Shown: piece by piece, positions 18,215 through 52,343 of the stretch | Layout of the letters: each line of letters starts with the position of its first letter | Numbering within the stretch: position 1 is the first letter of the stretch | Assembly (NCBI RefSeq): GCF_025370875.1 | Contig: NZ_JAMXFD010000017.1 | Span: 62,001-126,000, forward strand | DNA: 64,000 bases | DNA from: Laspinema palackyanum D2c | GTDB lineage: Bacteria; Cyanobacteriota; Cyanobacteriia; Cyanobacteriales; Laspinemataceae | Direction: 5' to 3' | Made by a program: the position numbers and the translations under genes | Notes under the pieces: model-generated | Seen by the model: only the letters and a program-made list of their open reading frames with translations | What the model was told of the DNA's origin: nothing | Database searches by the model: none

Positions 18215-18270
18215 AAATAAACTAGAAAAATAATGGATAGTCAAGAAAAACTAAAACTGATTAAAGGAAA

Positions 18271-26981: not shown

Positions 26982-27002
26982 ATTTCACCCTATCCGAAAG
27001 GC
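26982..27002 (-). promoter_or_regulatory. Leader element L3
   Basis: On the minus strand this variant reads GCCTTTCGG, three variable bases, then GGGTGAAAT, ending 15 bases before ATG 26966. It is one base longer than most copies and lacks the final C of TCGC. Confidence 0.5.
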
Positions 27003-27079
27003 TTTTATTTGAATCTTATTTTTTCCTTTTTCTATCTATCTGACCTCCATCTGATAGCAAACAGAGGCCAAATGGGATA

Positions 27080-28552
27080 TTAAGCTAAGACCAAAGCCCG
27101 TTGTGCCGAACTAACAGGAACCCATTTCTGGTTTTTGTAGACGTACCATTTGCCCTTAGTTTGGTCAAATGTTTCAACAAGACATCCAAGCAAAATAAAC
27201 TGTTGAGCACGGTAATTTACTAGGTCTTTCGGGTAGCTATCACCACAGAATTGGTTCGTGTTCATATCGCGGAACCAGTAGAGTCCCGTGTCTTCGTTCT
27301 TCTCGACCCGAATCGTCCGAGTCTGCGGCTGTTTTGGCGAGGACTTCATAGGTTGTTTCGCCGGTGTCTGTTGCGTGGGTGTTAGTTGCGGAGTTGTCGG
27401 TTGAGTGGGTGCAGGTTGTTTCGCCGGTGTCGATCGCCCCGGTGTCGGTTGCAGGGTTGCAGGTTGCGTGAATGTCGATCGCCCCGATGTCAATTGCCCC
27501 GGTACAGCTTGCGTGGATGTCGGTTGTTTCGCCGCCGGTGTCAGTTGCTCCGGTGTCGGTCGTGTGGTGGCCGAGTTAGCGATCGGTTTGATGCGGCTCC
27601 AGTTGATGCTTGCACTCGCTAGTTCCTGAAGGTCCACTTCGTCGTCACCCGATTTTGCTGGTGCAGGTTGGGGTGCAGGCTGCGGGGTTGCCCGGTTAGG
27701 ACTGAGTTTGATGTGCGTCCAGTTGATAGCTGCACTCGCCAATTCGTTGAGGTCCACTTGGTCCTCGTCTTTGGCGTTCGAGTTAAATACTTGCCAATCG
27801 CTATACATCGAACGCTGATGCAACTCTTGGCACATCACCCGCAAGTTGGTGGCCGTGGCAGTCACTCGTTTTCCAAAAGTACCACGCGGATTCGAGTAAC
27901 GGAGCCACTCGCCCTGCTGCTCCACGGTCCCCAGGATTTTGGCTTGCTCCCGTCCCATGCGATCGCGCAAATCTGCCACCACACGATATCCGTCGGCAGT
28001 GCGGACCAACCGGAACCCAGGCGCTAGGATTAAACCGGGTTGGAGTTGGACTGTTTCGGGGGGTGCGGATTCCGGCTGCTCTTGTCGTTGCTGGAAAGGA
28101 TAGACATAGAGCGGTTTTTCCAGCCAAGGCGACTGGTTGAGTTCGGGGGCAGCCATTCGTAAATGCTTGCACTTGCCCTCGACTAAGCCAGACTGGAACT
28201 GGAACGAACGGCAGGTGCAACTGGCTTCGGCAAGCTCATACCCACGCAACTCCCGACCATCCCAACTGTGGACTCGCACCTGATTGTCCTCGCGGGTAAT
28301 GCCATAGACGCTCCAGCCTTGAGACGAACAGCGGCGCGTCTGAATCTTGCCATCCACGGTCTGGTAGGTCACCAGAGCTTTGAATTTGAGTTCGTGGTGG
28401 ACGATATGGCCCCGGTGCCATATCGGTTTACGATACGGCTCGAAGCGCACACTAATCGCACGGGACACATTCTGGTAATGCTTGATATGGTCCCAAATCG
28501 CCTCGTCTAGCAATTCGGGCGATTTGTAGTAGGCAATGACTACGGTTGTCAT
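27080..28552 (-). CDS. SWIM zinc-finger protein with repetitive Pro/Thr linker (490 aa)
   Basis: A SWIM motif, CxC followed by CxH (CTCRSFQFQSGLVEGKCKH, near 130-148), binds zinc and commonly contacts DNA or protein. A duplicated segment (VDLNELASAAINWTHIK and VDLQELASASINWSRIK) follows, then a long Thr/Pro/Gln linker of repeats such as TPAKQP. A C-terminal domain (YWFRDMNTNQFCGDSYPKDL) closes it. The linker DNA is a degenerate tandem repeat and may vary in length. It is preceded at distance by leader element L4 and a hairpin. Role unknown; plasmid maintenance or recombination is possible. Confidence 0.75.
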   Translation of the reverse strand: MTTVVIAYYKSPELLDEAIWDHIKHYQNVSRAISVRFEPYRKPIWHRGHIVHHELKFKALVTYQTVDGKIQTRRCSSQGWSVYGITREDNQVRVHSWDGRELRGYELAEASCTCRSFQFQSGLVEGKCKHLRMAAPELNQSPWLEKPLYVYPFQQRQEQPESAPPETVQLQPGLILAPGFRLVRTADGYRVVADLRDRMGREQAKILGTVEQQGEWLRYSNPRGTFGKRVTATATNLRVMCQELHQRSMYSDWQVFNSNAKDEDQVDLNELASAAINWTHIKLSPNRATPQPAPQPAPAKSGDDEVDLQELASASINWSRIKPIANSATTRPTPEQLTPAAKQPTSTQAVPGQLTSGRSTFTQPATLQPTPGRSTPAKQPAPTQPTTPQLTPTQQTPAKQPMKSSPKQPQTRTIRVEKNEDTGLYWFRDMNTNQFCGDSYPKDLVNYRAQQFILLGCLVETFDQTKGKWYVYKNQKWVPVSSAQRALVLA

Positions 28553-28576
28553 CTAAAATCTCCTTAGATATATGTT

Positions 28577-28611
28577 GGTTCGGAACGGTTGCCTCCGTTC
28601 CTTTTTTTTTG
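28577..28611 (+). terminator. Plus-strand terminator upstream of the SWIM gene
   Basis: GGAACGG, loop TTGCCT, CCGTTCC, followed by ten T on the plus strand. No plus-strand gene ends nearby, so it may stop antisense transcription, or serve as a 5' hairpin in the SWIM mRNA. Confidence 0.6.
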
Positions 28612-28631
28612 GGTCAGACTCTATCTCGTCT

Positions 28632-28651
28632 GTCTCACCCACTGCGAAAGC
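28632..28651 (-). promoter_or_regulatory. Leader element L4 (distant copy)
   Basis: GCTTTCGCAGTGGGTGAGAC on the minus strand, 79 bases before the SWIM start, the one copy far from its gene. A six-pair UUUCGC/GUGAGA stem is possible. The intervening sequence contains the terminator-like hairpin. Confidence 0.6.
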
Positions 28652-28895
28652 TTTGTGTTGACTTTTTCATCATTATATCTTATAATACCCGGTTTACTCT
28701 GGGTTTTATGCATTAGAATTGCTGATGAATTTGGCATATTTGTGGGGGCTAACTTGAGGGGTGTTGAGAGCAAGACTGTCGGCGAATGGGTGAGTCAGCG
28801 GATGGCCGAAGTGCTCCAGTCTTACGAGCTAGATTCGGCCTCCAAAAGTTGAGCTGCATAACCCGCCTGTTGCTGGTGATTTATGCATTCAGGGG

Positions 28896-29219
28896 TCAAT
28901 TGTTTCTTAAAATTCTGGCTTTATGTTCAGCGATTTCCGGGCAAATTTCCCATTCGCTTTTCCAAACATATTTTAGTTCGACCTTGGGATTGTTATTGAT
29001 GGCTCGGATTTCGGTTCTAATCTGTTCACAAACCTGCTCTAATGTTTCCGTGGTCAGGTACTGATATACCCCGTAGAGCGGATTGAGTAGGATAATCCAA
29101 AGTATCACTGCGTAAGTAATCCACTCTAGGCCAGTAGCTATCTTATCCCAGCAAGTTTCTTTCTCAGTGGGCGGAAAGATTGCAATAAATTCGGCTTCAC
29201 TCATTCCTAATTTTTTCAT
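28896..29219 (-). CDS. Small single-span protein (107 aa)
   Basis: One membrane segment (WITYAVILWIILLNPLYGVYQYL, near 33-55) lies between an acidic head and a charged tail. The topology would place the tail in the cytoplasm or periplasm depending on flanking charge. It carries leader element L5 and GGAG before the ATG. No family recognised. Confidence 0.6.
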   Translation of the reverse strand: MKKLGMSEAEFIAIFPPTEKETCWDKIATGLEWITYAVILWIILLNPLYGVYQYLTTETLEQVCEQIRTEIRAINNNPKVELKYVWKSEWEICPEIAEHKARILRNN

Positions 29220-29234
29220 GATTTTTTCTCCTTT

Positions 29235-29254
29235 ATTTCACCCCCTGCGATAGC
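29235..29254 (-). promoter_or_regulatory. Leader element L5
   Basis: GCTATCGCAGGGGGTGAAAT on the minus strand, 15 bases before ATG 29219, preceded by an A-rich tract and followed by AAAGGAG. Confidence 0.75.
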
Positions 29255-29414
29255 TTTTTTATTTACTTTTGGTTTTTTTTATTCCTGAAATTGTCCTGAG
29301 TTTCTGCTAAGTCCATCCATTTGGGCGTTGTGGTCCCGTCGCGAATCAACCCACCTCATCATGAAGACTGCCAACGCGATGAGTCAGGCTCGAACCAACT
29401 GGACATTACCCTGG

Positions 29415-29655
29415 GCGATCGCAACACTTGAAGCAACCGACCCAATGACAATGAGTGCCGATGCGATCGCAATACTGAAGTAATCACCGAGATTGCCGAG
29501 GCGATCGCTCATGCGTGAACCAGCCTACCCAATCACGCAGGCTGCTAAGGCGATCGCATGAATGCAACACTAGCCCAATCATTCAGTCTGCCCTTGGCGA
29601 TTGCTTGTGCGCGAATCAACCGGCCCATTCGCAGAGACTGCCCTTGGCGATCGCA
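29415..29655 (+). repeat. HIP1-phased degenerate tandem repeat
   Basis: GCGATCGC or GCGATTGC recurs at 29415, 29463, 29501, 29550, 29597 and 29647, i.e. every 38-50 bases. The intervening sequence is similar only in part (CCTTGGCGATCGCATGA, CCAATCA, CAGCCT). No gene fits here. It runs into the 75-bp repeat array. Confidence 0.6.
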
Positions 29656-29679
29656 TGATGCACCAGCTATACAGCCTGC

Positions 29680-29950
29680 CCGGGGCGCGACACGAATGCG
29701 GTACAACTGGCTGACTCGAAAACGGACAGGCACCAACTCAGGTGACATTCCTGACAAGCGCGGGACACGAACGCGGGACAACTGGCTGAAGCGAGGACCT
29801 GCCACGATGATGGACTCAGTAACGTACCCAGCCGGAGCGCGACACGAACGGGGGACAATTGGCTGAGGCGAGAACTGACAGGCACCAACTCAGGTAACGT
29901 ACCCAGCCGGAGCGCGACACGAACGGCGAGAAACTGGCTCGGGTTTTCCC
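29680..29950 (+). repeat. Tandem repeat of about 75 bp, four copies
   Basis: GACACGAA occurs at 29689, 29764, 29841 and 29916 within longer units containing CGGAGCGCGACACGAACG, ACAACTGGCTGA and GACAGGCACCAACTCAGGT. The spacing is 75, 77 and 75 bases. A related 50-bp pair lies at 30751-30850. Confidence 0.75.
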
Positions 29951-29967
29951 AAGCCAGCGCATGAACT

Positions 29968-30132
29968 CTAGCGGTAAATCGTCAGGTCAGTGGGGGCGAA
30001 CGCTATCGGTTGACCGAGTTGGGAGGTCCATGTGCCGATGAGTTGGGCTTGGTTGGTGGTGACCTTGACCCAGCGACCGCCGCCGTAGCGGAAGGTGCTG
30101 CCGATAGTTAGTTGTTGGAATCGGATGAGCAT
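29968..30132 (-). CDS. Very small protein (54 aa)
   Basis: The best start is ATG 30132 (MLIRFQQLTIGSTFRYGGGRWVKV). A GTG nine codons upstream lies inside the leader element and would add KLLREFA. The pattern IGSTFxxxxxRWVKVTxxQA occurs in small plasmid and phage proteins of unknown role. The hairpin covering its upstream region may control translation. Confidence 0.55.
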   Translation of the reverse strand: MLIRFQQLTIGSTFRYGGGRWVKVTTNQAQLIGTWTSQLGQPIAFAPTDLTIYR

Positions 30133-30138
30133 AGCAAA

Positions 30139-30169
30139 CTCTCGCAATAACTTCACTCATTGCGAGAGC
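30139..30169 (-). promoter_or_regulatory. Leader element L6 within a 10-bp hairpin
   Basis: GCTCTCGCAATGAGTGAAGT (30150-30169, minus strand) ends 17 bases before ATG 30132. Its CTCTCGCAAT pairs perfectly with ATTGCGAGAG (30139-30148), forming a 10-bp hairpin with a ten-base loop just before the start codon. Confidence 0.65.
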
Positions 30170-30181
30170 TTTGCTATCATT

Positions 30182-30676
30182 TTATCGACTACAATTTTGT
30201 CCTTTGGCTTTACGTTGAGCGCCAAGTAAAGTGGACAAATAGGTGCAAGAGCGGTGGTTTCCCGACATGAGCGTAATCCGTCCTAATCGTCCGTTTGTTA
30301 CTCCTAAATGGTTGAACTGGACACGGTAGATGTTGTTACGATGATAAAAGGTGGTATTTTCTGCATCAATCTGGACCTGGGCTACACCGAGACTCTGCCA
30401 GTCCGCATTTGTGCAGGTTCCACCCCATCGACGATGATGCACGGAATATTCGATGTTGCCTTGATGTTCGCGGAAACAGGCTTCGTGGGTTTCTTTAGTT
30501 TGCCGCGCTGTGGATTTGGCATTGAGTAGGACTTGATAGGCATTATCTCGTGCTGAACGAGTGCGATAGTCCTGCAAAAATGAGAGCCAAGAAGGAATGG
30601 CAATTGCTGCGATAATGGCGATAATCAAGGCGGTGATGAGCAGTTCAACGAGCGTAATTCCTTTCTGAGTTTGCAT
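30182..30676 (-). CDS. Type IV pilin-like protein (164 aa)
   Basis: A prepilin N-terminus is clear: short basic leader MQTQKG, cleavage after Gly6, Glu at +5 and a hydrophobic helix (ITLVELLITALIIAIIAAIAIPSW). Residue +1 is Ile where Phe is usual. The globular part has four or more cysteines. Length and lack of pilin assembly genes nearby suggest a minor pilin (FimT/GspH-like) using host machinery, perhaps for DNA uptake or surface contact. It carries leader element L7. Confidence 0.85.
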   Translation of the reverse strand: MQTQKGITLVELLITALIIAIIAAIAIPSWLSFLQDYRTRSARDNAYQVLLNAKSTARQTKETHEACFREHQGNIEYSVHHRRWGGTCTNADWQSLGVAQVQIDAENTTFYHRNNIYRVQFNHLGVTNGRLGRITLMSGNHRSCTYLSTLLGAQRKAKGQNCSR

Positions 30677-30691
30677 CGTTTGATACCGATA

Positions 30692-30711
30692 ACTTCACCC
30701 CCGGCGATAGC
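30692..30711 (-). promoter_or_regulatory. Leader element L7
   Basis: GCTATCGCCGGGGGTGAAGT on the minus strand, 15 bases before the pilin ATG at 30676. Confidence 0.7.
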
Positions 30712-30750
30712 TTGCTCGTTGTTGTTAGTTTTTACTCGGTGTTCTAGTTT

Positions 30751-30850
30751 ATCCATCCGCCCCGGAGCGCGACACGAACAAGCGAGGACAGACCCCGCTC
30801 ATCCATCCGCCCCGGAGCGCGACACGAACGAGCGAGGAAAGGCCCCGCTC
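30751..30850 (+). repeat. Two 50-bp tandem repeats
   Basis: The units 30751-30800 and 30801-30850 both run from ATCCATCCGCCCCGGAGCGC to GCCCCGCTC-like ends. They share the CGGAGCGCGACACGAAC core with the array at 29680-29950. Confidence 0.8.
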
Positions 30851-30859
30851 ATCCAGGCG

Positions 30860-31372
30860 CTATCGGCTACGGACCGGGTGGAGGCGTTTGTAGGAGGCAC
30901 TTACCGGATCGAAGTTCACGACGGTAATCCCTTGGTCGAGCGCATATTCCACGGCATGACAGGTTCCGCCACTGCGTCCATCCCACACGGACAGAACCAA
31001 GCTGCATCGGTCTACCATCCATTTGTTGCGGTCGTTCATGCAGCCTGGAAAATAAGTGCGATGGGAAAGGTAATGGACACTATCGGCTTTTTCTAGCAAG
31101 TGGAAATAGTAGCGTTGACTAGATTTAGGCCATTTCTTATATTGTTCTTTACAGGGAATTGCCGCAATTAACCGTAAGTCCGGGTCATCAGCCACCATAC
31201 CTGCTGCCCACTGGTCCACGCCGATTGCCATGCCCGAGATGAAACTGTCAAACCCTCGTTCTTTGGCTCGGTCAATCATCCGTTGTAATGCAATTTGGAC
31301 GGGAAATATATCGGTTGCTGCAAATTGACGATGGCCGGTGAATGCTGCGGTTTTTTCTCGAATGAGTTCCAT
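30860..31372 (-). CDS. SLOG-superfamily protein, DUF1273/YspA-like (170 aa)
   Basis: The motifs FTGHR (11-15), FISGMAIGVDQWAA (about 44-57), IPCKEQYKKWP, FPGCMNDRNKWMVDRCSLVLSVWDGRSGGTCHAVEYA and a final DP are those of the DUF1273/YspA branch of SLOG, a Rossmann-like fold that binds or processes nucleotide-derived ligands. The length is normal. The family is linked to ADP-ribose or NAD derivatives in conflict systems. It lies just downstream of the DUF4326 gene. Confidence 0.85.
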   Translation of the reverse strand: MELIREKTAAFTGHRQFAATDIFPVQIALQRMIDRAKERGFDSFISGMAIGVDQWAAGMVADDPDLRLIAAIPCKEQYKKWPKSSQRYYFHLLEKADSVHYLSHRTYFPGCMNDRNKWMVDRCSLVLSVWDGRSGGTCHAVEYALDQGITVVNFDPVSASYKRLHPVRSR

Positions 31373-31393
31373 GATGTTCCTCCAAAACAGGGC

Positions 31394-31426
31394 TAATAAA
31401 AGAGAGTGACGTTGCCGCCACCCTCT
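31394..31426 (-). terminator. Terminator between DUF4326 and SLOG genes
   Basis: On the minus strand AGAGGGTG and CACTCTCT pair around a short loop and are followed by TTTTATT. Located just after the stop of the DUF4326 gene. Confidence 0.65.
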
Positions 31427-31437
31427 CGAAAGACTAC

Positions 31438-32733
31438 CTACATTTCAATCGGTTCTGTCGCAGCTTTCTCCAGCTTTTCTGCATTGACTGCACTGACTCC
31501 CAGACTCGCATCCACGTTATCGGCAAACTCTGGATTTTGAGCCAACCACGCCTGGGCCTCCGCTTGCTGGCGCTTGCGAATCGCGACAATCTCTAGCTTG
31601 TTCGATTTTGCCGGTTGATTGCGTTTCGGCTGCGACTTCTGCACAGGTTTTTCGACTGCTTCAACTGGCTGACTATCTGAAACTTGGCTCCGCAATTGTT
31701 GAGGTTGCTTTTGATAGGACTTGCGCTTTTCTAGCTGGGCTTTGTTAATCTCTAGCAATGCGGCCTTGATTTGGTCTAGCTCTGGCACCTCGCTGTTTGC
31801 ATTGATGAGCTGATCGCCAAAATAAGCCTTGGCCGTAGACAACAACATGGAAGTCCGGTGATTGAGGGATTTGACCGTATTTGCCTTGGCAATCTCGCTC
31901 AAGAAGAACTCCGCCTCGAACTCTTCATAGAACTGGTTGCGATAAGTAGCCCATAAGCCATCTTTCCAATCGTTAATCCGGTCCCAGTCATATTCGGCTT
32001 GACTGTAGCTACCGTCTGGATTACGCCGCCCTGGAGCTATCAAGTAAACATCGAGTTGACCCATTTCATACGCATTCCGCCAAATCTCTTTCTTGCTAAT
32101 CGACTGCCACCAGAAGTGCCGCAATCCATAATAAAGCTGCTTGAAAATGTACTGCAAATGCTTGATTTCGTACTCAGCTTCACGATTCAGTTTCGCTTGC
32201 TCGATATGCGCTGGATTGAAGATGTTCGAGATTGAATTAAGTTGCATAGCTGACTCCAAAACTAGATTTTCTTTCACTTCCAGCGATAGCCCTTTATTTT
32301 TTACTCGCTTCTTTTTGCTTACTTCTTGCTCTTTCTTCTCTTTCTTCACTTGCTTTTTCCCTTCGACTAGATTTTCCTGAATCAACCAATGAATGGCCTT
32401 GACAATCACATCGCCATGACAAGCCAACGGAGCGCAATAACAAGCCAACTCCAGAGCTTCGCCCCGCATCGTCCGTTTTGCTAACATAATCAACTCAGCA
32501 AAAGCCGCATTGGACTCGCCCCGCAGACCCGCTTTAATTTGCGCCCAGAGCCAATGACGATACTTCTCAACGACCATTTCGCGATTGCCATCTTTGCCAA
32601 TATGGAACGGATTCGCCAATGCAGATTGTGCCAACTTGTAACGTGCATTGAAACGCCCAATGTAGTGCCGGTTTACTCCCCGGAATTGGACTGCTGTGCC
32701 GTTGACCACCGAGAGATTGATGTGTGTATTCAT
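31438..32733 (-). CDS. DUF4326-domain protein with long C-terminal extension (431 aa)
   Basis: Residues about 22-115 (YIGRFNARYKLAQSALANPF, IGKDGNREMVVEKYRHWLW, LACYCAPLACHGDVIVKAI) are the DUF4326 signature, a small domain of unknown function common in phages and plasmids. A Lys-rich linker (KKQVKKEKKEQEVSKKKRVK) leads to a helical domain with several Trp and a charged tail. GGAGG precedes the ATG. It is the first gene of the minus run beside the gene-free region at 32.8-34.1 kb. Confidence 0.8.
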   Translation of the reverse strand: MNTHINLSVVNGTAVQFRGVNRHYIGRFNARYKLAQSALANPFHIGKDGNREMVVEKYRHWLWAQIKAGLRGESNAAFAELIMLAKRTMRGEALELACYCAPLACHGDVIVKAIHWLIQENLVEGKKQVKKEKKEQEVSKKKRVKNKGLSLEVKENLVLESAMQLNSISNIFNPAHIEQAKLNREAEYEIKHLQYIFKQLYYGLRHFWWQSISKKEIWRNAYEMGQLDVYLIAPGRRNPDGSYSQAEYDWDRINDWKDGLWATYRNQFYEEFEAEFFLSEIAKANTVKSLNHRTSMLLSTAKAYFGDQLINANSEVPELDQIKAALLEINKAQLEKRKSYQKQPQQLRSQVSDSQPVEAVEKPVQKSQPKRNQPAKSNKLEIVAIRKRQQAEAQAWLAQNPEFADNVDASLGVSAVNAEKLEKAATEPIEM

Positions 32734-32914
32734 GATGTTGTCCTCCTAAGTTAACTGTGCGAGGCTCTTCTTCCCCCGCCCCCTTGAGGGTTATAGGGGT
32801 GCGAGGAAAGCTTAGAAGTCGTTAGGCGGGGGTTGCCGCAGACGGTGTACGCAATGAACAGTCAACTGCCACCGCCTTACGAATTCTTAGCTAGGTCAAG
32901 GCTTACGGAGACTT

Positions 32915-32985
32915 AGCGATCCCCGTCGGGCTTGCAAGAACTTAGGGATTCTACCCAATACTTTGGTAGCCCGACGGGGATCGCT
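32915..32985. repeat. Perfect 18-bp inverted repeat
   Basis: AGCGATCCCCGTCGGGCT (32915-32932) and AGCCCGACGGGGATCGCT (32968-32985) enclose 35 bases. Confidence 0.9.
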
Positions 32986-33002
32986 TACGTCGGAGTTACT
33001 TG

Positions 33003-33121
33003 CTCGGAGTCGCTTAGAATCTCTTGCCAAATACGCTACCTGGTAGGATTTCTTAGCGACGCCAGGAGCTTAGAAATCCTTCAGGTAGCCTATTTGGTTA
33101 GAGATTGTTTGCGAGTCTGAG
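33003..33121. repeat. 119-bp imperfect hairpin
   Basis: Arms 33003-33042 and 33082-33121 (40 bases each) match as inverted repeats with short mismatches at regular intervals. An inner pair, AGGATTTCT (33045-33053) and AGAAATCCT (33072-33080), continues the stem. The mismatches fall about every ten bases, giving a bulged cruciform or long hairpin. Confidence 0.85.
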
Positions 33122-33191
33122 GCCTTTACCGATTCCGACCACCCCTATAGACTAGAATTGCTGGGGGGGGCTGGCCCAGCGGCCATGAGCG

Positions 33192-33438
33192 CTCCCTTGG
33201 GGGCGGGGGGGGCGCGAATGAGGGAGCGGGGAGGGGATGATGGGCGATGTCTCAACTTGTTGAGGCCAGAACATCACCCCTCCCCCGACCGAATGAGCAC
33301 TCAATGTTTGTGCGATCGCCAAGATTTGACTGAACCTCCCCTGGGGGTCGGGGGGCGCGAGTGAGGGAGTGGGGAGGGGCTGACGGGCAATGCCTCGTAG
33401 GCCAGCGCGTCACCCCTCCCCCGACCGAATGAGCACTC
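33192..33438 (+). repeat. Two G-rich direct repeats with internal hairpins
   Basis: The units 33192-33302 and 33336-33438 share CTCCC, a G-run, GCGCGA, GAGGGAG, GGGGAGGGG and the end CACCCCTCCCCCGACCGAAT followed by GAGCACTC. In each, GGGGAGGGG can pair with CCCCTCCCC. The period is 144 bases. Confidence 0.8.
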
Positions 33439-33455
33439 TAGTTTTGGATGCGATC

Positions 33456-33529
33456 GCGAAGCGTCTCCTGAAGGAGAATCGCGAAGCGTCTCCTGAAGGA
33501 GAATCGGCAAACGTCTCTTGAAGAATCGC
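33456..33529 (+). repeat. 25-bp tandem repeat (two perfect, one partial)
   Basis: The unit GCGAAGCGTCTCCTGAAGGA plus GAATC is present at 33456-33480 and 33481-33505, and a degenerate copy follows. The same small repeat recurs once near 63639 and in altered form near 61210 and 57650. It is a common cyanobacterial dispersed repeat type. Confidence 0.8.
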
Positions 33530-34124: not shown

Positions 34125-34144
34125 TAATTTCCCCGGGGAAATTA
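34125..34144 (+). promoter_or_regulatory. Perfect 20-bp palindrome before the DUF4417 gene
   Basis: TAATTTCCCCGGGGAAATTA ends 16 bases before ATG 34161, just before GAGAGGAGG. It could be an operator or a start-proximal mRNA hairpin controlling the downstream genes. Confidence 0.7.
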
Positions 34145-34160
34145 GAGAGAGAGGAGGCGG

Positions 34161-35799: not shown

Positions 35800-35810
35800 C
35801 CACCAAAACC

Positions 35811-36452
35811 GTGCAAATCAACCGACATCTGGCTGCCCGGGCCAAGAACAAACTAGCTCCACTCTTCCGCCAAGCCATTGCCCAAGGAATTCTTACTCGT
35901 GATGATTACCTACTTGATATTGGCTGCGGAGTGGGTGCCGACTTCAATCAGTTGCGGCAGATGGGCTATCGGGCTTCGGGCTGGGATTTGTACTACTATC
36001 CGCTCTGTTGTGGTTGTTGCCATCGTCCCGATATTGTTAGCCTTAATTATGTCTTAAATGTCATCGAGAATCCCCAAGAACGACGCGAGTTATTGACGAA
36101 TTCTTGGCAGCTTTGCACGAAATCGTTGCTCATCGCATTACCTCGTTGTATCAAGCAGACCGGGACAGCTTACGCGGACGGACGACTCAACTCTTATCGC
36201 TGCTTCAATCGCGCCTTTGGGACGGACGAATTCTACGAACTCCTCGAAAGCGTTACGGGCCGACTCCCTCGACGGTTGGGCGACGATTTGGCCTGCTGTT
36301 TCAAGGATGACCCAGCCATCGAACTGGATAATTACTATCAACTCATCAGTTTGCTGCATAACGAAAAGCAGCGGTTATCGCTCGTACAAAAACGACGATT
36401 ACGAGCGCTCATCCGTCAATCTTCCGGCTGCAAGACCATCGGCGGCAAGTGA
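35811..36452 (+). CDS. Phosphorothioation-associated methyltransferase-like protein, paralogue 1 (213 aa)
   Basis: This starts with GTG. The SAM-binding motif LDIGCGVGADFNQL lies near 40-53, followed by GWDLYYYP and ADIV-like DIVSLNYVLNVIENPQERRELL. That NxxYVLNVIExPxER signature is typical of the putative methyltransferases found beside Dnd phosphorothioation genes (TIGR04096 type). No dnd genes are present. The gene faces a second member of the family at 36644, tail to tail. Its target is unknown; the family may act on DNA or RNA. Confidence 0.72.
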   Translation: MQINRHLAARAKNKLAPLFRQAIAQGILTRDDYLLDIGCGVGADFNQLRQMGYRASGWDLYYYPLCCGCCHRPDIVSLNYVLNVIENPQERRELLTNSWQLCTKSLLIALPRCIKQTGTAYADGRLNSYRCFNRAFGTDEFYELLESVTGRLPRRLGDDLACCFKDDPAIELDNYYQLISLLHNEKQRLSLVQKRRLRALIRQSSGCKTIGGK

Positions 36453-36616
36453 GCCAGGGCTGCATCCAATTTAGCCAAGACAAGCTGGCTCTGCTGCAAG
36501 GCAATCCGAGTGTGGCCGCGCTCCAAGGCGGTGCAAACGGTCTGCACTTCTCGGCGAGTTAATAGCAGCAATTGACGGGCTTTTTCAGCAGTTTCTAAGG
36601 CGGTTGGGTCGGTCAT
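36416..36616 (-). CDS. Small helical protein between the methyltransferases (66 aa)
   Basis: A two-helix polypeptide (ALETAEKARQLLLLTRREVQ, ALQQSQLVLAKLDAALAHL), probably coiled coil. Its 3' end overlaps that of the plus-strand methyltransferase by 37 bases. Probably co-transcribed after the gap from the 36644 gene's neighbourhood only if a separate promoter exists; function unknown. Confidence 0.45.
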   Translation of the reverse strand: MTDPTALETAEKARQLLLLTRREVQTVCTALERGHTRIALQQSQLVLAKLDAALAHLPPMVLQPED

Positions 36617-36643
36617 TGCACTAAAATAAAATCTAGTTTGCGG

Positions 36644-37561
36644 TTATTGTATCGCACTCAGGTACTCGATTCGTGCCGCTATAATCCGCATCTGGTCACG
36701 ACGGGCCAGAGCCGCTTCAATCCATTGCCGTCGCGGTGAACCGACTGCCCCTGCGTGTAAACTTTTGTTGAGCTTGCCCGTGCTGGGATTGGGGATGTCA
36801 GGCAAGGGCGATCGCAGTCTAGGATAACGATAGCCTTTAGCGAGGATGCTATCCCAGCGGACTTGTTCGGACGGAACCCAGCCAGAAGCAAGGAGGTGAG
36901 TCCGCTCGTCTTGATAGCGCTTGAGGAGTTGACGGCGTTGGGTGCGAGTTAGGGCGTGAGGTTGCAGGGTATCAACGCGGTCATCTTTGGCGAACAAATA
37001 CGCACCGGTCGCGCCCAATAACGGTGTCGGAAACAGCCCCAGAATCGCACATAAAAACGTCTGGATTTCCGCTGCATCATAGAATTTGCAGAAGGTGTTC
37101 CATTGGGTGCGGTAACCATCGCCATCCACTCGCCAATGGGAATGCGGCTCACCCCAGCTAATCGCCACGACTAGCTGCTCTTGCGCTAGATGGTACGCTT
37201 CCACTAGGACCGCCTCTCGTTCTATCGGGTCACGAATCACATTCAGCACGAACAACAACGTCACAACATCCGCTGATTGTTTGCGCTGTGGTCGGTGGTA
37301 CGGGTCATAGCCAGTCGAGCGGATTCCTTGTTCTTGCAGGTAATCCACATCGAAGCCGTAACCGCAGCCATAGTCAAAATGAGTGCGGTCTGGGGTGAGG
37401 ATGCCTGTTTCCAGGCACTGGCGGATTGGGACACTAGGAGCGCGGCGGATGGGGGCGCTGCGTCTTGGGGTAGGCGCGAAAATGGCGGTAGACCTCCAAT
37501 ACGACGCTGTTATGATACCCCAAGACTGAGCCAGATTAGCCTTGGTAGTAGTCGCGCTCAT
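36644..37561 (-). CDS. Phosphorothioation-associated methyltransferase-like protein, paralogue 2 (305 aa)
   Basis: Recognised by FDYGCGYGFDVDYLQEQGIRSTGYDPYHRP, ADVVTLLFVLNVIRDPIEREAVL, LVVAISWGE and DGYRTQWNTFCKFYDAAEIQTFL. These correspond in order to motifs of the Dnd-associated putative methyltransferases. The C-terminal 100 residues are basic and unique. The first 40 residues may not be translated. Two family members in 1.8 kb without dnd genes is unusual. Confidence 0.8.
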   Translation of the reverse strand: MSATTTKANLAQSWGIITASYWRSTAIFAPTPRRSAPIRRAPSVPIRQCLETGILTPDRTHFDYGCGYGFDVDYLQEQGIRSTGYDPYHRPQRKQSADVVTLLFVLNVIRDPIEREAVLVEAYHLAQEQLVVAISWGEPHSHWRVDGDGYRTQWNTFCKFYDAAEIQTFLCAILGLFPTPLLGATGAYLFAKDDRVDTLQPHALTRTQRRQLLKRYQDERTHLLASGWVPSEQVRWDSILAKGYRYPRLRSPLPDIPNPSTGKLNKSLHAGAVGSPRRQWIEAALARRDQMRIIAARIEYLSAIQ

Positions 37562-37736
37562 CTAGCCAGCGTTGTTCGGCTGCGGTTGTGGCTTCATCCA
37601 CGGGCATGGACTCGTCGTATTCTTCAAGCCAGTCGGGCAGGTCAAATTCGGACGATGTTTCAGCTACGTTCAGTTTAGGGATGAACAGGTCAGAAATAGC
37701 CATGATTTGGTAAGATTGATTCGGTTGGTTTTCCAT
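37536..37736 (-). CDS. Small acidic protein (66 aa)
   Basis: Acidic C-terminal half (SSEFDLPDWLEEYDESMPVDEATTAAEQRWLDERDYYQ). The end overlaps the start of the methyltransferase by 26 bases. AACGAGG precedes the ATG, and leader element L8 lies 33 bases upstream. Function unknown. Confidence 0.55.
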   Translation of the reverse strand: MENQPNQSYQIMAISDLFIPKLNVAETSSEFDLPDWLEEYDESMPVDEATTAAEQRWLDERDYYQG

Positions 37737-37769
37737 GAGAATGACCTCGTTAATTGATAGATTGCATGA

Positions 37770-37789
37770 GTTTCAAACCAGGCGAGAGC
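37770..37789 (-). promoter_or_regulatory. Leader element L8 (divergent copy)
   Basis: GCTCTCGCCTGGTTTGAAAC on the minus strand, 33 bases before ATG 37736; the GGGTGA part is replaced by GTTTGA. Confidence 0.5.
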
Positions 37790-37818
37790 TTGTGATACTC
37801 CCACCTGGTTCAAGCGGT

Positions 37819-38205
37819 TTAGTGAGGAATTTCGTCTAGTTCTTCTTCATCTTGGTGGAAACGGTTTTGATAATCTTGATAACGTTGGCACGATTTGCGG
37901 TTGGTTTCGAGGAGTTGTTCTAGGTTTTTGCCGAGTTTAACTTGGGCATATTCTAGGAGTTGCTTGAGGGTGTACTTGCGGTTCTCAGGCGTTCCAAACG
38001 TTTTGGCGAAGTTTTGCTTGTACTGTTTCCAGTCAAATTTCTCTTTGCTTCCAACTTTGGCAATAAATCCGACTTCTTCACGAAGTGCGTAATAAACTTG
38101 GCGATACAACCGTTCCGAATAATCGGAGACTTGATAACCTAGTGCAGAATCGTCAATGATGTTGTTTTTCACGGTTTTGTTGTTGGTTTCAGTTGCTTGA
38201 GTCAT
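37819..38205 (-). CDS. Unknown helical protein (128 aa)
   Basis: Highly helical and charged, with aromatic residues (YSERLYRQVYYALREEVGFIAKVGSKEKFDWKQYKQNF) and an acidic tail (HQDEEELDEIPH). No motif identifies a function. Carries leader element L9. Confidence 0.55.
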   Translation of the reverse strand: MTQATETNNKTVKNNIIDDSALGYQVSDYSERLYRQVYYALREEVGFIAKVGSKEKFDWKQYKQNFAKTFGTPENRKYTLKQLLEYAQVKLGKNLEQLLETNRKSCQRYQDYQNRFHQDEEELDEIPH

Positions 38206-38222
38206 GATTCAATTCCTCGTTA

Positions 38223-38242
38223 ATTCCACCCTACGCGAGAGC
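38223..38242 (-). promoter_or_regulatory. Leader element L9
   Basis: GCTCTCGCGTAGGGTGGAAT on the minus strand, 17 bases before ATG 38205, followed by AACGAGG and preceded by AACAAAAAG. Confidence 0.7.
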
Positions 38243-38319
38243 CTTTTTGTTAGTTTTTGTTGGTTTCTGTTCATGAATAATTCTTTCTCGTTCACTTAAT
38301 TTTGCTCTGAATTATTCAT

Positions 38320-39255
38320 TTAGTTATGCTGTCTTTTCATCGTTTTCATTGTCTTTCCTAGACTTTCGCTCCCACGGACTCCGGTGTTTTCGGGCCAGTC
38401 GCACAGAATCGCACCGGGGCAGTTTGTGGCGATCGCATCGGTAGGCAGCGGTGGCAGGTAAACGCTCAGATGCCGTTGGGTGGCGAACTGATGGAGTTTG
38501 GTCAAGCAGTCCTGCAAGGCGATCGCTGCGCCTACCGCATCATCGGCCAGAGCCAGATGAGCCAGGAACAACGGCGGATTGTCTAGGATGCGAATCAGTT
38601 GGAGTTTGCCCGGGGTGAACGAGTCACGGTGCTGACAGTATTTGGCGTAGGCAGTGGGGAAAGCCTGGGCAATGGCTTGAGGATAGTGGCGATCGATGAT
38701 TACTGCGATGATGCCGGTGTAGATGTCACAATCTAGCCTTGCTCGAATCTCCAGCATCGGCAGGGGTTTAGTTAGTTGAACCATTGGCTGACACCGATGG
38801 CGCAAAAACAACGGACCGTCACTGACTAAAATTTGCCAGATGTGAGCGGTGGAAAACTGGATGGATTCGTCTTCGTCTTGGAATTGGTCGAACTGGGCCG
38901 CGTACTCAATCAGTGCTTGGTGGTCTCGCACATACTTGAGCCACAGGGCAATATGGTACTGTTCTCCCCAGTCGAGAGAGTCCGGTTCGTGACAAATCGG
39001 CAGCGTCCAATCGCCCAAACGCCAACCAATATGCGCCAACCCTAGATTCGCCCAATCCTTTGACTCTAGGGCATTCTGCGGTGTCTTGCCATTCCCGAAT
39101 AGTTTGGCCCGATGATAATGGTTGGCAATCGTGTCCACTCGACCGAACGAGCGCACCCGACAATGATGGCTCGAAAAACGCCGGTCTCCTCGATGATGAC
39201 ATTGCAAAACCCGTTTCCCTTGCTGTTCAACCCAGGGTGCTTGAATCAGTTGCAT
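38320..39255 (-). CDS. NADAR-like plus macro-like protein, paralogue B (311 aa)
   Basis: Same layout as the 18308 gene: IANHYHRAKLFG, WANLGLAHIGWRLGDWTLPI, QYHIALWLKYVRD and FDQFQDE in the NADAR-like half, then YPQAIAQAFPTAYAKYCQH and LQLIRI in the macro-like half. The macro half has lost the NxxGxM motif and the glycine loop. This suggests a binding protein that has lost catalysis, or one acting on a different ligand. ADP-ribose relations are inferred from these similarities only. Carries leader element L10. Confidence 0.55.
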   Translation of the reverse strand: MQLIQAPWVEQQGKRVLQCHHRGDRRFSSHHCRVRSFGRVDTIANHYHRAKLFGNGKTPQNALESKDWANLGLAHIGWRLGDWTLPICHEPDSLDWGEQYHIALWLKYVRDHQALIEYAAQFDQFQDEDESIQFSTAHIWQILVSDGPLFLRHRCQPMVQLTKPLPMLEIRARLDCDIYTGIIAVIIDRHYPQAIAQAFPTAYAKYCQHRDSFTPGKLQLIRILDNPPLFLAHLALADDAVGAAIALQDCLTKLHQFATQRHLSVYLPPLPTDAIATNCPGAILCDWPENTGVRGSESLGKTMKTMKRQHN

Positions 39256-39270
39256 CTTTTTTCCTCGATG

Positions 39271-39290
39271 ACTTCACCCTGGGCGAACGC
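39271..39290 (-). promoter_or_regulatory. Leader element L10
   Basis: GCGTTCGCCCAGGGTGAAGT on the minus strand, 15 bases before ATG 39255, with CGAGGAAAAAA between. Confidence 0.75.
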
Positions 39291-39321
39291 TTATCTCATT
39301 AAATTGCTGATTATTGATTTG

Positions 39322-39792
39322 CTATTCCAATCGAACTAAGAAGCTGGGTTTTTTGCAAGTCAGGGCAGCTTCACGAGCGGCATATTCCGCTTGGAGTTGG
39401 CGGCCTGCGTCGGTTTGCGAGAGTTGGTCGCGTTTGGCTTGCAAGGTGGCGATCGCCGCGTCGATGGACTGGAGCGCGTCGGCATTGTGGTACTCGGCTT
39501 TGCGCTGTTCGAGTGCGATGGCTTCGGCGAGACTTTCGAGGTCTTGGTCGTCGCTAGGCTTGGGCTTGACCGTGCGAAATTGCAGGGTGATACTGCAAGG
39601 ATAGTCGTTGTGGCTTTCGTAAACTTTGCGTTTACCGTTGATAGTTTCGCCCTGGCAGAGGACCTCAAAGGCTTGTTGAATGGCCTGGGGTTCGAGTTCT
39701 TTGATTTGTTGTTCAAGGATATACTTTTGCCAGCGGAGTTTGCCGTAAGTTTCGAGCAAGGATTCGGTCTGTTGGATGCGTTCAGTGGTCAT
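39322..39792 (-). CDS. Coiled-coil protein (156 aa)
   Basis: Two helical segments with heptad-like patterns (ESLLETYGKLRWQKYILEQQ, LQSIDAAIATLQAKRDQLSQ) flank a strand-rich centre (KRKVYESHNDYPCSITLQFRTV). It may be a structural or anti-restriction type protein. No family. Carries leader element L11. Confidence 0.6.
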   Translation of the reverse strand: MTTERIQQTESLLETYGKLRWQKYILEQQIKELEPQAIQQAFEVLCQGETINGKRKVYESHNDYPCSITLQFRTVKPKPSDDQDLESLAEAIALEQRKAEYHNADALQSIDAAIATLQAKRDQLSQTDAGRQLQAEYAAREAALTCKKPSFLVRLE

Positions 39793-39818
39793 GATATTTG
39801 CCTTACGTTAATTGGATT

Positions 39819-39838
39819 GATTCAGTTTGAGCGAGAGC
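39819..39838 (-). promoter_or_regulatory. Leader element L11 (divergent copy)
   Basis: GCTCTCGCTCAAACTGAATC on the minus strand, 26 bases before ATG 39792; the 3' half deviates from the consensus. Confidence 0.45.
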
Positions 39839-39878
39839 TTGCTCAATTAATCTGGGGATTGTTCATCCCCAATTGGTC

Positions 39879-40403
39879 CTAGAACGTTAGGTAATCGTCT
39901 GGTTCTGGCGGAGTTCGGTCGAGGCGAGTTGGGTCAACCTGGGGCTGGATAGACTTGATTCGTTGATAGTTTTGTTCGTTCCACAAGCCATCGGATAAGC
40001 CCGAATGAAACAGGTAGCTGAGTCCTTCTAGCAGAGTCGGCTCCCACTGCATTCGCTCCCATTCTTCCTCCGTCCATTCGGTGGTAATGTCGTAGTCTAT
40101 GTTCGGTTCGTCCAAAACTTTTTTCTGGTAGGAATAGCCTTCCACGAATCCATCGGCTCCATCGTAGAGTTCTTTCGAGATGAGGATGTCTCCTGACAAA
40201 TTCACCTCGATATGGTCCTCTATCGGCAACTGACATTGTTGAGCCATTTTTGCCCAAGCTAGGACACACTCGACCATCGTCCAGTTCTGAGCTTGCCGTC
40301 CTAGTTCGTTCAGTTTCCGGTTCGGTTTGATGCTGCCAATGAGTATGCGATAGCGGGGTTGGCGCGTTGTAGCAGATTCGGTTATTTTAGCTTGTGGCTT
40401 CAT
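39879..40403 (-). CDS. Unknown acidic protein (174 aa)
   Basis: I place the start at ATG 40403 because the upstream in-frame GTG belongs to leader element L12. Acidic and strand/helix mixed (VNLSGDILISKELYDGADGFVEGYS; TTEWTEEEWERMQWEPTLLE) with a Pro/Asp-rich end. No family recognised. Confidence 0.6.
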   Translation of the reverse strand: MKPQAKITESATTRQPRYRILIGSIKPNRKLNELGRQAQNWTMVECVLAWAKMAQQCQLPIEDHIEVNLSGDILISKELYDGADGFVEGYSYQKKVLDEPNIDYDITTEWTEEEWERMQWEPTLLEGLSYLFHSGLSDGLWNEQNYQRIKSIQPQVDPTRLDRTPPEPDDYLTF

Positions 40404-40417
40404 CGTTTTTTCCGATA

Positions 40418-40437
40418 ATTTCACCCCCTGCGATAGC
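40418..40437 (-). promoter_or_regulatory. Leader element L12
   Basis: GCTATCGCAGGGGGTGAAAT on the minus strand, identical to L5, 14 bases before ATG 40403. The GTG within it is in frame with the gene. Confidence 0.75.
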
Positions 40438-40533
40438 TTGCTTTTTTTACTTTTTGTTACTCTTTTTATTTAGCTCAAACTCGGAGGAAAGCCAGCTAAT
40501 ACTGACTACCTCCGAAACAGCCCAGACTTGCGC

Positions 40534-40878
40534 TTACTCAGCGATTAAGGCTTCCAAGTCGAGGATGCGTTCTAATGCTCGATAATTCGCTTGAAGCATT
40601 TTCAGTTGCGGAATGTCGCATAACTCTTGCGCCACCAGCCAGCGTTCATGCAGGGAGTCGGGCGCTTTGACGCAGTAGTACCATTGAGGCGGATAACGTA
40701 GCGTATCCAGGGGCAAAGGCCAGCGGGCATAGTCGAGTTTGACGCCGGTCACTTCCACGACATCCCATTCGGTCGGCGGCGTATTGTTGCGGATGGCGAC
40801 GGACTGAGCAAGTTGAAATTGTAAGCTAGGAAATTCGTATTCGTCGTCAATGTTAGTCGCAAAACCAAATTTGTTCAT
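40534..40878 (-). CDS. Unknown protein (114 aa)
   Basis: Compact, Trp/Pro-rich (TPPTEWDVVEVTGVKLDYARWPLPLDTLRYPPQWYYC) with a helical end. Its ATG overlaps the TGA of the preceding gene. The leader element L13 therefore lies inside the coding end of that gene. Function unknown. Confidence 0.6.
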   Translation of the reverse strand: MNKFGFATNIDDEYEFPSLQFQLAQSVAIRNNTPPTEWDVVEVTGVKLDYARWPLPLDTLRYPPQWYYCVKAPDSLHERWLVAQELCDIPQLKMLQANYRALERILDLEALIAE

Positions 40879-41525
40879 TGCTGTTCCTCCCTTGTTTCAA
40901 CCAACGCGAATGCTTGCTCAATTTTTGCTTGTTCTTGTGCTTGGAGATTCCATACTTTCAACTCCCAAGGACAAACTGTGCGCTGCCCACGGCGTAATTG
41001 GGCGTAACTGGCGAGTTGATTTTCTAGTAATTGAGCTTGATAATTTTGTGCCGTTTCCCGACAATCAAAACCCAAGTTGGTGGTCCAAACTGACTCAAGA
41101 TTGTCCCCATCTAAGCGATAATTGCACCGGACTAACCTTGGCGAAATCACCCGCTCATAAAACTGGCAATACCGACGAGAAGGAGCCGCCAAAGCACACA
41201 GGTCAGCTTTAGCGAGAAACACTGGAGCCAGCCGCAAATCATCAGCGAACATCACCCGCAGACTGTGGCGCAGGGGCTGGATATGCTGGATATCGCCATA
41301 TTGCGGGTAACGTTTTAGTTGGCGGGCAAAATGGGGCGCGGCGATGGCACGTTCGGGGGCGACATAATTGAGGTAGTTTTCTAGGGAAGTCACACCAATC
41401 CCTTGCCGAAAACAATCTCGCCAGAGCCAACGCTTAATTTGTCGGGCTAATAACTGGACAGAAAACCAGTGGATTTCGTTGTCACAAAAGCCAGATATCA
41501 GACTAGAAGAAACTCGTTTTAGCAT
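40875..41525 (-). CDS. Unknown protein (216 aa)
   Basis: Folded and cysteine-containing (SRRYCQFYERVISPRLVRCNYRLDGDNLESVWTTNLGFDC), basic at the N-terminus. It ends IEQAFALVETREEQQ, where the codons overlap a leader element for the next gene. No family recognised. Carries leader element L14. Confidence 0.6.
   Translation of the reverse strand: MLKRVSSSLISGFCDNEIHWFSVQLLARQIKRWLWRDCFRQGIGVTSLENYLNYVAPERAIAAPHFARQLKRYPQYGDIQHIQPLRHSLRVMFADDLRLAPVFLAKADLCALAAPSRRYCQFYERVISPRLVRCNYRLDGDNLESVWTTNLGFDCRETAQNYQAQLLENQLASYAQLRRGQRTVCPWELKVWNLQAQEQAKIEQAFALVETREEQQ
40894..40913 (-). promoter_or_regulatory. Leader element L13 (inside a coding end)
   Basis: GCATTCGCGTTGGTTGAAAC on the minus strand, 15 bases before ATG 40878, followed by GGGAGGAA. 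It is also read as codons of the preceding gene. Confidence 0.6.
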
Positions 41526-41540
41526 AGTATTCTATCGATT

Positions 41541-41561
41541 ATTTCACCCTAATGCGATAGC
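41541..41561 (-). promoter_or_regulatory. Leader element L14
   Basis: On the minus strand GCTATCGC, ATTA, then GGGTGAAAT, one base longer than most copies, ending 15 bases before ATG 41525. Confidence 0.7.
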
Positions 41562-41656
41562 CTAAACGATTGCCTTTATTATCAAAATTGCCACACTTCC
41601 AATTAACCATTGACCGAACAAAATGGTCAGCAACCACCGGGATTGTGCAGTGTTCA

Positions 41657-42004
41657 TCAAGTTTTTCCTACGACTTCACCTCGCGCTGGTGGCCGTTTTT
41701 TCGACTGTGGTTTGTCCCAGTGTTGCAGTTGAGGATTGCAAATTGGACAGAGTTGCGGATGGTTGTGACGCCGTTTGAGTTGACGTTCGAGACTGCGGGT
41801 CCCACCTTTCCAGATTCGGACACACTCGAACGGAATTCCTTGCTCGGCAAAGGCGGCGGTTAACTTGGCTCCCTTCCCCTGGGCATGGTCTTGTAGTCGC
41901 TGGCTTAAGTTGCGCGTGTAGCCGAGATAATGCTGGGCGAGTCCGTGAGCTTGATGCGGGTTGCCGATCGCTTGCTCGTAATGCAGCAGATAAACAAAAG
42001 ACAT
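41657..42004 (-). CDS. GIY-YIG nuclease-family protein (115 aa)
   Basis: The motif pair YLLHY (5-9) and YLGYTRNLSQRLQDHAQGKG (27-46), with Arg and a later Glu (ECVRIWKGGTRSLERQLKRR), is the GIY-YIG fold of small DNA or RNA nucleases. Length is normal for the stand-alone UPF0213/Hyp type. The tail is basic. Such proteins are widespread; the substrate is unknown. A weak leader element copy (L16) precedes it. Confidence 0.85.
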   Translation of the reverse strand: MSFVYLLHYEQAIGNPHQAHGLAQHYLGYTRNLSQRLQDHAQGKGAKLTAAFAEQGIPFECVRIWKGGTRSLERQLKRRHNHPQLCPICNPQLQHWDKPQSKKRPPARGEVVGKT

Positions 42005-42020
42005 GGGACAGACCTCGAAT

Positions 42021-42041
42021 GAATCTGCCCCATGCGCAAGC
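42021..42041 (-). promoter_or_regulatory. Leader element L16 (weak copy)
   Basis: On the minus strand GCTTGCGCATGG followed by GGCAGATTC, 16 bases before ATG 42004, with TTCGAGG between. It matches in length, spacing and layout, but TCGC and GTGA are changed. Confidence 0.4.
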
Positions 42042-42118
42042 TAGTGAGATTGTTGTTGCCAATGTGCGATGGCAGGGATGAGCCAGAACGCAACGAGGAC
42101 GAACGAGAATTCGAGCAT
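42041..42118 (-). CDS. 25-aa membrane peptide with its own leader element
   Basis: ATG 42118 encodes 25 residues, starting MLEFSFVLVAFWLIPAIAHW and ending QQQSH, one membrane span. It sits between the GIY-YIG and 42186 genes, with leader element L15 16 bases upstream and GGAG between. The presence of the leader at the usual distance is the main evidence that it is a real gene. Confidence 0.5.
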   Translation of the reverse strand: MLEFSFVLVAFWLIPAIAHWQQQSH

Positions 42119-42134
42119 GATGGTTACTCCAATT

Positions 42135-42154
42135 ATTTCGCCCGTTGCGAACGC
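42135..42154 (-). promoter_or_regulatory. Leader element L15
   Basis: GCGTTCGCAACGGGCGAAAT on the minus strand, 16 bases before the 25-aa peptide. UUCGC and GCGAA would pair perfectly here. Confidence 0.7.
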
Positions 42155-42185
42155 TTCTTTTATTTTTCTTTACTTTTCTTTTCTT

Positions 42186-52313: not shown

Positions 52314-52343
52314 ATCGGATGCTTTTGAGTTAGAATTCGTCTT

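Follow-up and report, generated by a model that had tools for sequence, protein, structure and literature searches.

The stretch of DNA analyzed here (the window, 64,000 nucleotides) corresponds to G000:C17:62001-126000 of Laspinema palackyanum D2c, part of the 133,028-bp contig C17. This contig encodes ParA/ParB-type, integrase and primase-like genes together with a type III-B CRISPR system, and it appears plasmid-like. A short repeated element was detected in the window ahead of many genes, and the pattern given for it in an earlier note on this DNA yielded 14 sites at no more than two mismatches versus 0.36 expected, a number reached in none of 100 shuffles. The repeat is real, start-codon-linked and strand-specific, and the genes downstream of its copies encode unrelated products, as had been described. 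About sixteen copies had been listed; 15 of these 16 were accepted, the sites being right and the coordinates off by about one base, and one that had been missed, at 32272, was added, giving 16 accepted copies. Thirteen of the 15 accepted listed positions were matches at two mismatches or fewer. The other two were the copy at 39820, which is weak (position weight matrix, PWM, score of 16.4), and that at 41542, which at 21 nt is one base longer than the others.

On the plus strand, copies were located at 7226..7245, before the DUF6876 gene (ATG 7266; gap of 20 nt between element end and ATG), and at 18270..18289, before the gene of a macro-like paralogue of 296 aa (18308-19198; gap 18). The other copies lie on the minus strand. 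A GCCTTTCGG variant at 26983..27002 precedes gene 26301-26966 with a gap of 16 nt, and the copy at 28633..28652 is separated from gene 27080-28552 by 80 nt that hold two hairpins. Gaps of 16, 18 and 16 nt were found for the copies at 29236..29255 (gene 28896-29219), 30151..30170 (gene with ATG 30132) and 30693..30712 (pilin-like gene 30182-30676). The added copy, 32272..32291, stands within the open reading frame (ORF) 31438-32733, with an in-frame ATG at 32247, 24 nt on. Further copies were located at 37771..37790 (gene 37536-37736; gap 34), 38224..38243 (gene 37819-38205; gap 18), 39272..39291 (macro-like gene 38320-39255; gap 16) and, the weak one, 39820..39839 (gene 39322-39792; gap 27). 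The copy at 40419..40438 precedes a gene starting at ATG 40403 (gap 15), that at 40895..40914 lies before gene 40534-40878 and inside the 3' end of ORF 40875-41525 (gap 16), and the 21-nt copy at 41542..41562 precedes gene 40875-41525 itself (gap 16). The last, at 42136..42155, stands before a 25-aa ORF (ATG 42118; gap 17). Two local features adjoin these copies: a sigma-70-like promoter (11/12) at 28658-28686 on the opposite, plus strand beside copy 28633, and a near-perfect inverted repeat at 30132-30175 (minus strand) that spans copy 30151, which lies within it, reaches the start codon and is partly lost on the related contig of strain D2d described below.

The near-fixed gap to the start codon that had been proposed held for 12 of the 16 copies (15-20 nt) and failed for four (80, 24, 34 and 27 nt). 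A Shine-Dalgarno (SD)-like stretch was frequent between the second conserved block of the element and the ATG. The A-rich tract upstream of the copies was confirmed, with 324 A and 98 T in 600 nt compared with 308 A and 287 T in 1080 nt upstream of 27 other starts used as controls. The listed site at 42022 was rejected as a copy (PWM 9.8), being part of a hairpin at 42001-42035 (minus strand; 14 pairs, -21.6 kcal/mol here and on the D2d contig) in which the start codon of GIY-YIG gene 41657-42004 is buried. This hairpin resembles the buried starts reportedly present in phage homing endonucleases.

The related contig of Laspinema sp. D2d (G007:C24, NZ_JAMXFC010000025.1; here C24) is largely collinear with C17 at about 80-85% identity and holds orthologous counterparts for all 16 copies, without gain or loss. 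In the 15 ungapped pairs, no differences were found at core positions 3, 4, 6-9 and 18-20, and divergence reached 7.8% in the non-N core, 31% at N10-12 and 24.8% (209/844) in the upstream 60 nt. On these figures, the element is under selection. The 431-aa ORF 31438-32733, host of copy 32272, is intact on both contigs, and the letters of its element are kept even though the surrounding linker is poorly conserved and lysine-rich. In this ORF (minus strand), a DUF4326-like domain and a second domain are fused in one reading frame; the copy lies in the linker between them, ahead of the internal ATG, and the DUF4326-like domain is free-standing on a more distant contig, C310. On both contigs, CTTTCGAGAGGGTGGCGG at 31373-31450 (minus strand), ahead of the SLOG gene 30860-31372, looks like a decayed copy.

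The expectation that homologous genes elsewhere would also carry the element was borne out on D2d, where all 16 sites are occupied, but not for gene 26301-26966. Homologues of this gene were detected in 14 of 14 family genomes searched, and none of the 14 loci with a readable start (15 inspected) was preceded by the element, the best PWM score being -3.4 compared with 35.4 for the plasmid copy. Since these homologues lack it, the element belongs to the plasmid and not to the gene family. Scans with a sequence model in 388 class and 388 order genomes, which are blind to the wider family presented below since the second block differs there, gave many matches solely in G000 and G007, and all 15 matches in G000 were on C17. 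Exact-pattern matches off C17 contain GCGATCGC, a repeat that is frequent in these genomes. Contig G002:C41 showed no motif excess, and the copy at its homologue of gene 18308-19198 is degenerate and expanded; the 14 single exact matches in viral contigs were at about chance level. One recent duplication including flanks was rejected as the origin of the copies: after masking of the elements, the matches among copies were two cases in which the compared segments overlapped and, in a single pair, two short stretches of 28 nt and 18 nt.

Relatives of the element were found when contigs that hold a distantly related macro-like gene were scanned de novo for repeats upstream of starts. They are present on the plasmid-like contigs G040:C310, G002:C98, G004:C52 and G000:C45 (here C310, C98, C52 and C45), and on plasmids of Anabaena sp. 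WA102, Planktothrix and C. aponinum. On C310, GGCTATCGCC was found at 9 starts (shuffled maxima 3), and TTGCTNTCGCT at 5 starts in C52 and 4 in C98 (shuffled maxima 2-3). The family form consists of an octamer, GCTNTCGC, a spacer of 9-11 nt and a second block, TGATGTTT, followed by an ATG about 30 nt from the octamer. The spacing of 9-11 nt was kept in 40 of 41 distinct copies from C310, C98, C52 and C45, and the second block matched at a mean of 6.73 of 8 positions versus 4.76 (sd 0.13) with the spacer shuffled, the consensus having been derived from the same 41 copies and the shuffles having undergone the identical search. The window elements read GTGAAAT in the second block where most relatives have TGATGTTT. 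Judged from these sequences, the window element is one form of a wider plasmid family.

The distance from octamer end to ATG was 30-36 nt on C310, 27-35 nt on C98 (with two copies at 40), 29-33 nt on C45 and mostly 26-31 nt on C17 and C24. Within a range of 26-36 nt, the octamer preceded an ATG-ORF at 15/20 sites on C310, 12/26 on C98, 15/43 on C52, 6/6 on C45, 9/23 on C17, 9/17 on C24 and 13/20 on the Anabaena plasmid, in which 15 of the 20 octamers lie ahead of an ORF start. The corresponding counts for its reverse complement, GCGANAGC, were 0/20 on C310, 0/26 on C98, 1/23 on C17, 0/20 on the Anabaena plasmid and 0 on C52, C45 and C24. The family contigs share cargo at about 30% identity, comprising macro-like, DUF4326, SLOG, pilin-like and coiled-coil proteins. 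The DUF6876 gene is preceded by the element on both C17 and C310, as is the macro-like gene across the contig types compared. The pattern GCTNTCGC-N8..10-TGATGTTT was matched in 23 of 388 class genomes, three times in G040, twice in G000 (on C45), twice in G334 (on different contigs) and once in each of the others; a macro-like profile had matches, mostly partial, in 49 of 388 genomes.

A pairing of UCGC with GUGA, which the note took to be kept in two copies with GCGA, did not withstand analysis. No two-sided change was found for this stem, its loop-closing pair was broken in 9 of 31 sequences, and RNAalifold on 27 copies returned 2 pairs and -0.72 kcal/mol. A single variable pair in the wider family fitted 18 of 41 copies versus 20.7 in shuffles, and no Rfam family was found at the gathering score, with three weak, unrelated matches. 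Individual copies sit in very different predicted folds, and the predicted minimum free energy of the element leaders was not below that of the controls (-14.7 vs -11.9 mean). Several other readings were also discarded. A two-pair mini-stem, GC-NNNN-GC, showed one two-sided change in one orthologous pair at an ambiguous alignment, maybe an alignment effect. A leader peptide (RGC NNT CGC NNN GGG TGA) is broken, by inspection, by CGA/TGG variants, by the additional base in copy 41542 and by upstream in-frame stops. Anti-SD pairing of GGTGA with the usual 16S 3' end is broken, also by inspection, by transitions at positions 14-17; a search for 16S in the genome itself found none. For a trans-acting antisense RNA encoded on C17, the best non-copy site scored 23.7 compared with null maxima of mean 24.6 (sd 1.9). 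The repeats of the type III-B CRISPR system of C17 were dissimilar to the element when compared by eye.

Predicted terminators in the relatives were informative on the level at which the element may act. All eight strong terminators found between 40 and 50 kb of C310 lie on the gene strand, versus 0.15 in block shuffles. With a slightly looser rule, the counts on the gene and the other strand were 10/0 for Anabaena, 13/0 for C. aponinum, 8/1 for Planktothrix, 9/1 for C310 and 11/1 for C98 at 133-148 kb, with shuffled means of 0.2-0.8; five of six relative gene arrays thus have 8-13 strong terminators on the gene strand and 0-1 on the other. A terminator-like site stands within the 150 nt ahead of the element in 7/15 copies on C310, 1/19 on C98, 1/22 on C52, 0/6 on C45, 2/12 on C17 and 0/11 on C24. 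The T-run ended 1, 3 and 4 nt before the octamer on C310, 3, 7 and 10 nt on the Anabaena plasmid and 7 nt on C98. About 40 nt are then left up to the ATG, and the element is the sole recurrent signal there. Provided that these terminators are functional, the element must be where transcription begins. Upstream -10-like boxes were not in excess (4/15 with 5.2 expected, 8/20 with 10.5 and 6/19 with 6.6), and no sigma-70 -35/-10 hexamers with 16-18 nt spacing were found at the element.

We infer the function of the element throughout, and an even chance is given to its being the form, in this window, of a bipartite promoter core that lies close to gene starts and serves a set of cargo genes in a family of cyanobacterial plasmids. 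The octamer and the second block keep a rigid spacing and lie on the gene strand, some 30 nt separating the octamer from the ATG. Transcription would start within the second block or directly behind it and give a short leader, and a dedicated factor, not host sigma-70, would recognize the element. On C17 itself, where the terminator argument is unavailable, the promoter case would rest on homology with the relatives. The C310 units are reminiscent of phage morons, which are single genes with their own promoter and terminator; the plasmid units would differ in sharing an unusual signal and in lying on plasmids.

Several observations speak against a promoter. The terminators are predicted only, in array stretches picked after the elements had been seen, and one array of C98 (35-48 kb) gave 1/1. 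On C17 (0/4) and C24 (1/3), terminators were not on the array strand. Copies on C17 lie within tight co-directional gene runs, one of them in the end of an upstream ORF and one inside an ORF. A promoter does not require a near-constant ATG distance, and the SD-like stretch between second block and ATG would place the transcription start unusually close. The A-rich tract and the internal positions on C17 would fit an RNA signal as well. For Planktothrix, GCTACCGC was found ahead of a start at 4 of 9 sites with the narrow distance range, and at 8 of 9 with a wider one allowing GTG starts; one of the Anabaena control octamers (6/9) shares positions with the true site and cannot count as independent.

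These points bear on the alternative preferred in the earlier note, which took the fixed distance as a sign of a translation-level signal. As part of the mRNA, the element would then act directly ahead of the ribosome footprint, as an enhancer or operator on which a ribosome component or an RNA-binding protein works. The nearly constant ATG distance, the strand-asymmetric A-rich tract in the window, the operon-like runs, which on C17 and D2d are free of intervening terminators, and a copy in frame within an ORF before an internal ATG are in its favor, and the same reading was chosen by the authors of the SAS repeats of actinophages (PMC3203893). It is weakened by the relatives, in which some copies follow the end of a terminator by 1-10 nt, and it finds no conserved structure, no lower leader free energy than in controls and, given the variation at positions 14-17, no consistent pairing with the 16S 3' end. 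This alternative is rather doubtful, though it keeps some probability. A promoter is somewhat more likely, since gene-strand terminators lie close upstream and -10 boxes are not in excess.

An RNA-processing or 5'-end stability site, at which a nuclease would cut between cistrons, fits the inter-cistron position on C17 and the A-rich, single-stranded upstream tract. A cut site needs no fixed ATG distance, the block spacing is rigid and terminators stand just upstream in the relatives; such a role seems improbable. Marginally less credit is given to an unusual promoter of the host sigma-70 family: no recognizable dedicated polymerase was found in G000 or G007, which would suit it, but the copies cluster on plasmid contigs, as do 15 of 15 model matches of G000 on C17, and the -35/-10 match is missing. 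A DNA-level gene-cassette mark (recombination site) or a repressor operator is very improbable, since the modular look of the element-gene-terminator units on C310 is countered by the 16 of 16 sites in place on C17 and D2d without gain or loss, by the asymmetry of the site and by a position tied to the start codon and not to gene ends.

If the element is a promoter, a candidate reader is encoded by some of the relatives. The ORF 124707-128255 of C98 (plus strand, 1182 aa) matched the Pfam RdRP family at 25.1 bits (cut-off 23.8, E 9e-6), and its homologue on C310 is the ORF 51230-53851 (plus strand). The motif G-x-D-x-D-G-D is kept in seven of seven aligned relatives, DxDGD being invariant. In a tblastn search with the C310 protein, matches were obtained in 43 plasmid records, every one of them under a cyanobacterial name; at least 80% of the query is covered in 13, and the weaker matches showed 21-28% identity. 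The Pfam family PF05183 scored above cut-off in one of six proteins tested, below it in one and not at all in four. No PDB match by profile was found for the C98/C310-type proteins, and the AlphaFold2 model had a mean pLDDT of 30, too low for fold assignment. These proteins look like QDE-1/YonO-like single-chain polymerase candidates. No octamer was found upstream of the two polymerase genes inspected, as might be expected if they are transcribed by the host polymerase. When 50 kb of each of six named polymerase-bearing plasmids were scanned for the start motif, 7 starts were found in Anabaena (shuffled maxima 2-3), 6 in Planktothrix (3-4) and 5 in C. aponinum (3).

It may be proposed, tentatively and with well under an even chance, that these plasmids carry their own transcription system, formed by a single-chain two-barrel RNA polymerase and a bipartite promoter before dozens of cargo genes. 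The octamer would drift between plasmids (GCTATCGC, GCTCTCGC, GTTTTCAC, GCTACCGC) as in co-evolving polymerase-promoter pairs. In the relatives that encode the QDE-1/YonO-like candidate, this polymerase is our guess for the factor; C17, without the gene, would have kept promoters read by another one.

A number of results count against this proposal. The polymerase match is in three pieces in Synechocystis B12 and in two in C. aponinum, and no clear motif was detected in Synechocystis B12 (3 starts vs 2-3), Phormidium yuhuli (3 vs 2) or Pseudanabaena (2 vs 2-3). No DxDGD ORF was found on C17, on the D2d contig or within the initial 20 kb of C45, and the C98 query had no match in G000 or G007, although G000 holds both C17 and the C98-type contig C45. 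Sigma70_r2 had 11 matches in the genome, none of them on C17, and no T7-type RNA_pol scored over the cut-off in a search whose control was itself positive in 0 of 14 genomes. Two loci in viral contigs hold relatives of the polymerase, neither with the octamer family. For the relatives, the link between element and polymerase is a strong lead; it is unsupported for C17, for which the polymerase was rejected as the factor, its gene having been found neither on C17 by the DxDGD ORF search nor in G000 with the C98 query.

In the literature searched, with limited coverage of subscription journals, no described element of this form was found, as the note had also stated. The nearest described kinds are the SAS repeats and a motif of Microbacterium Cluster EC phages, for which the parts of the reports drawn on give no established function (PMC3203893, PMC7302621). 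The Cluster EC motif is 18 bp long and occurs in 12 copies of one orientation, 21-30 bp before start codons, its role being described as unknown; like our element, it is asymmetric, upstream of the ribosome-binding site and before many unrelated small genes (PMC7302621). By eye, its sequence, TAGaCTCTaGGTgTaAgC, differs from the element consensus. It belongs to phages of another host that encode a sigma factor, none having been found on C17, and the part of PMC7302621 considered connects it with neither terminators nor a gene for a single-chain polymerase. SAS and its extended form ESAS, from Cluster K mycobacteriophages and Cluster EF phages, share with the element an asymmetric repeat, a fixed place before unrelated starts and restriction to one mobile-element group. 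SAS is 13 bp long, lies 3-7 bp from the start and contains AGGAG, and the extended inverted repeat of ESAS is found at about half of the SAS sites (PMC3203893, PMC7302621). The element, by contrast, is 20-27 nt long with a gap of 15-80 nt (mostly 15-20), has no AGGAG/anti-SD core and shows no shared inverted repeat in the aligned flanks.

YonO is the single-chain RNA polymerase of phage SPbeta, which transcribes late genes and whose promoter, in the portion of the report cited, was left to be determined (PMC5467207). The plasmid candidates resemble it in being single-chain, in the DxDGD motif and in residing on a mobile element, but the relation would consist solely of this motif and a weak Pfam match. 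Transcription by YonO starts at a single late operon, whereas the element precedes many single genes, and the polymerase gene was not found on C17. According to the same portion, its discoverers left open both this promoter and the role of the cyanobacterial YonO-like proteins (PMC5467207). Start-linked repeats are known from actinophages; the present one could be followed through several plasmid lineages of cyanobacteria, some of them named and public, and its motif is defined sharply enough to be tested. If the pairing with the polymerase is true, it would provide a candidate promoter, a candidate polymerase, a defined gene set and a possible orthogonal tool for expression in cyanobacteria; a translation signal would instead represent a new mode of initiation.

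Additionally, the type III-B CRISPR-Cas system extends over G000:C17:47087-62448, ending at position 447 of the window, and its 35-nt repeats form a long array. The C. aponinum plasmid that carries the polymerase candidate likewise has a Cmr system. A palindromic repeat of 32-36 nt (GCGGTAAGCG...CGC type) was found at 13350-13550 of the window and at 64602-64637 of C17 numbering minus 62000, and is present on many contigs of the genus.

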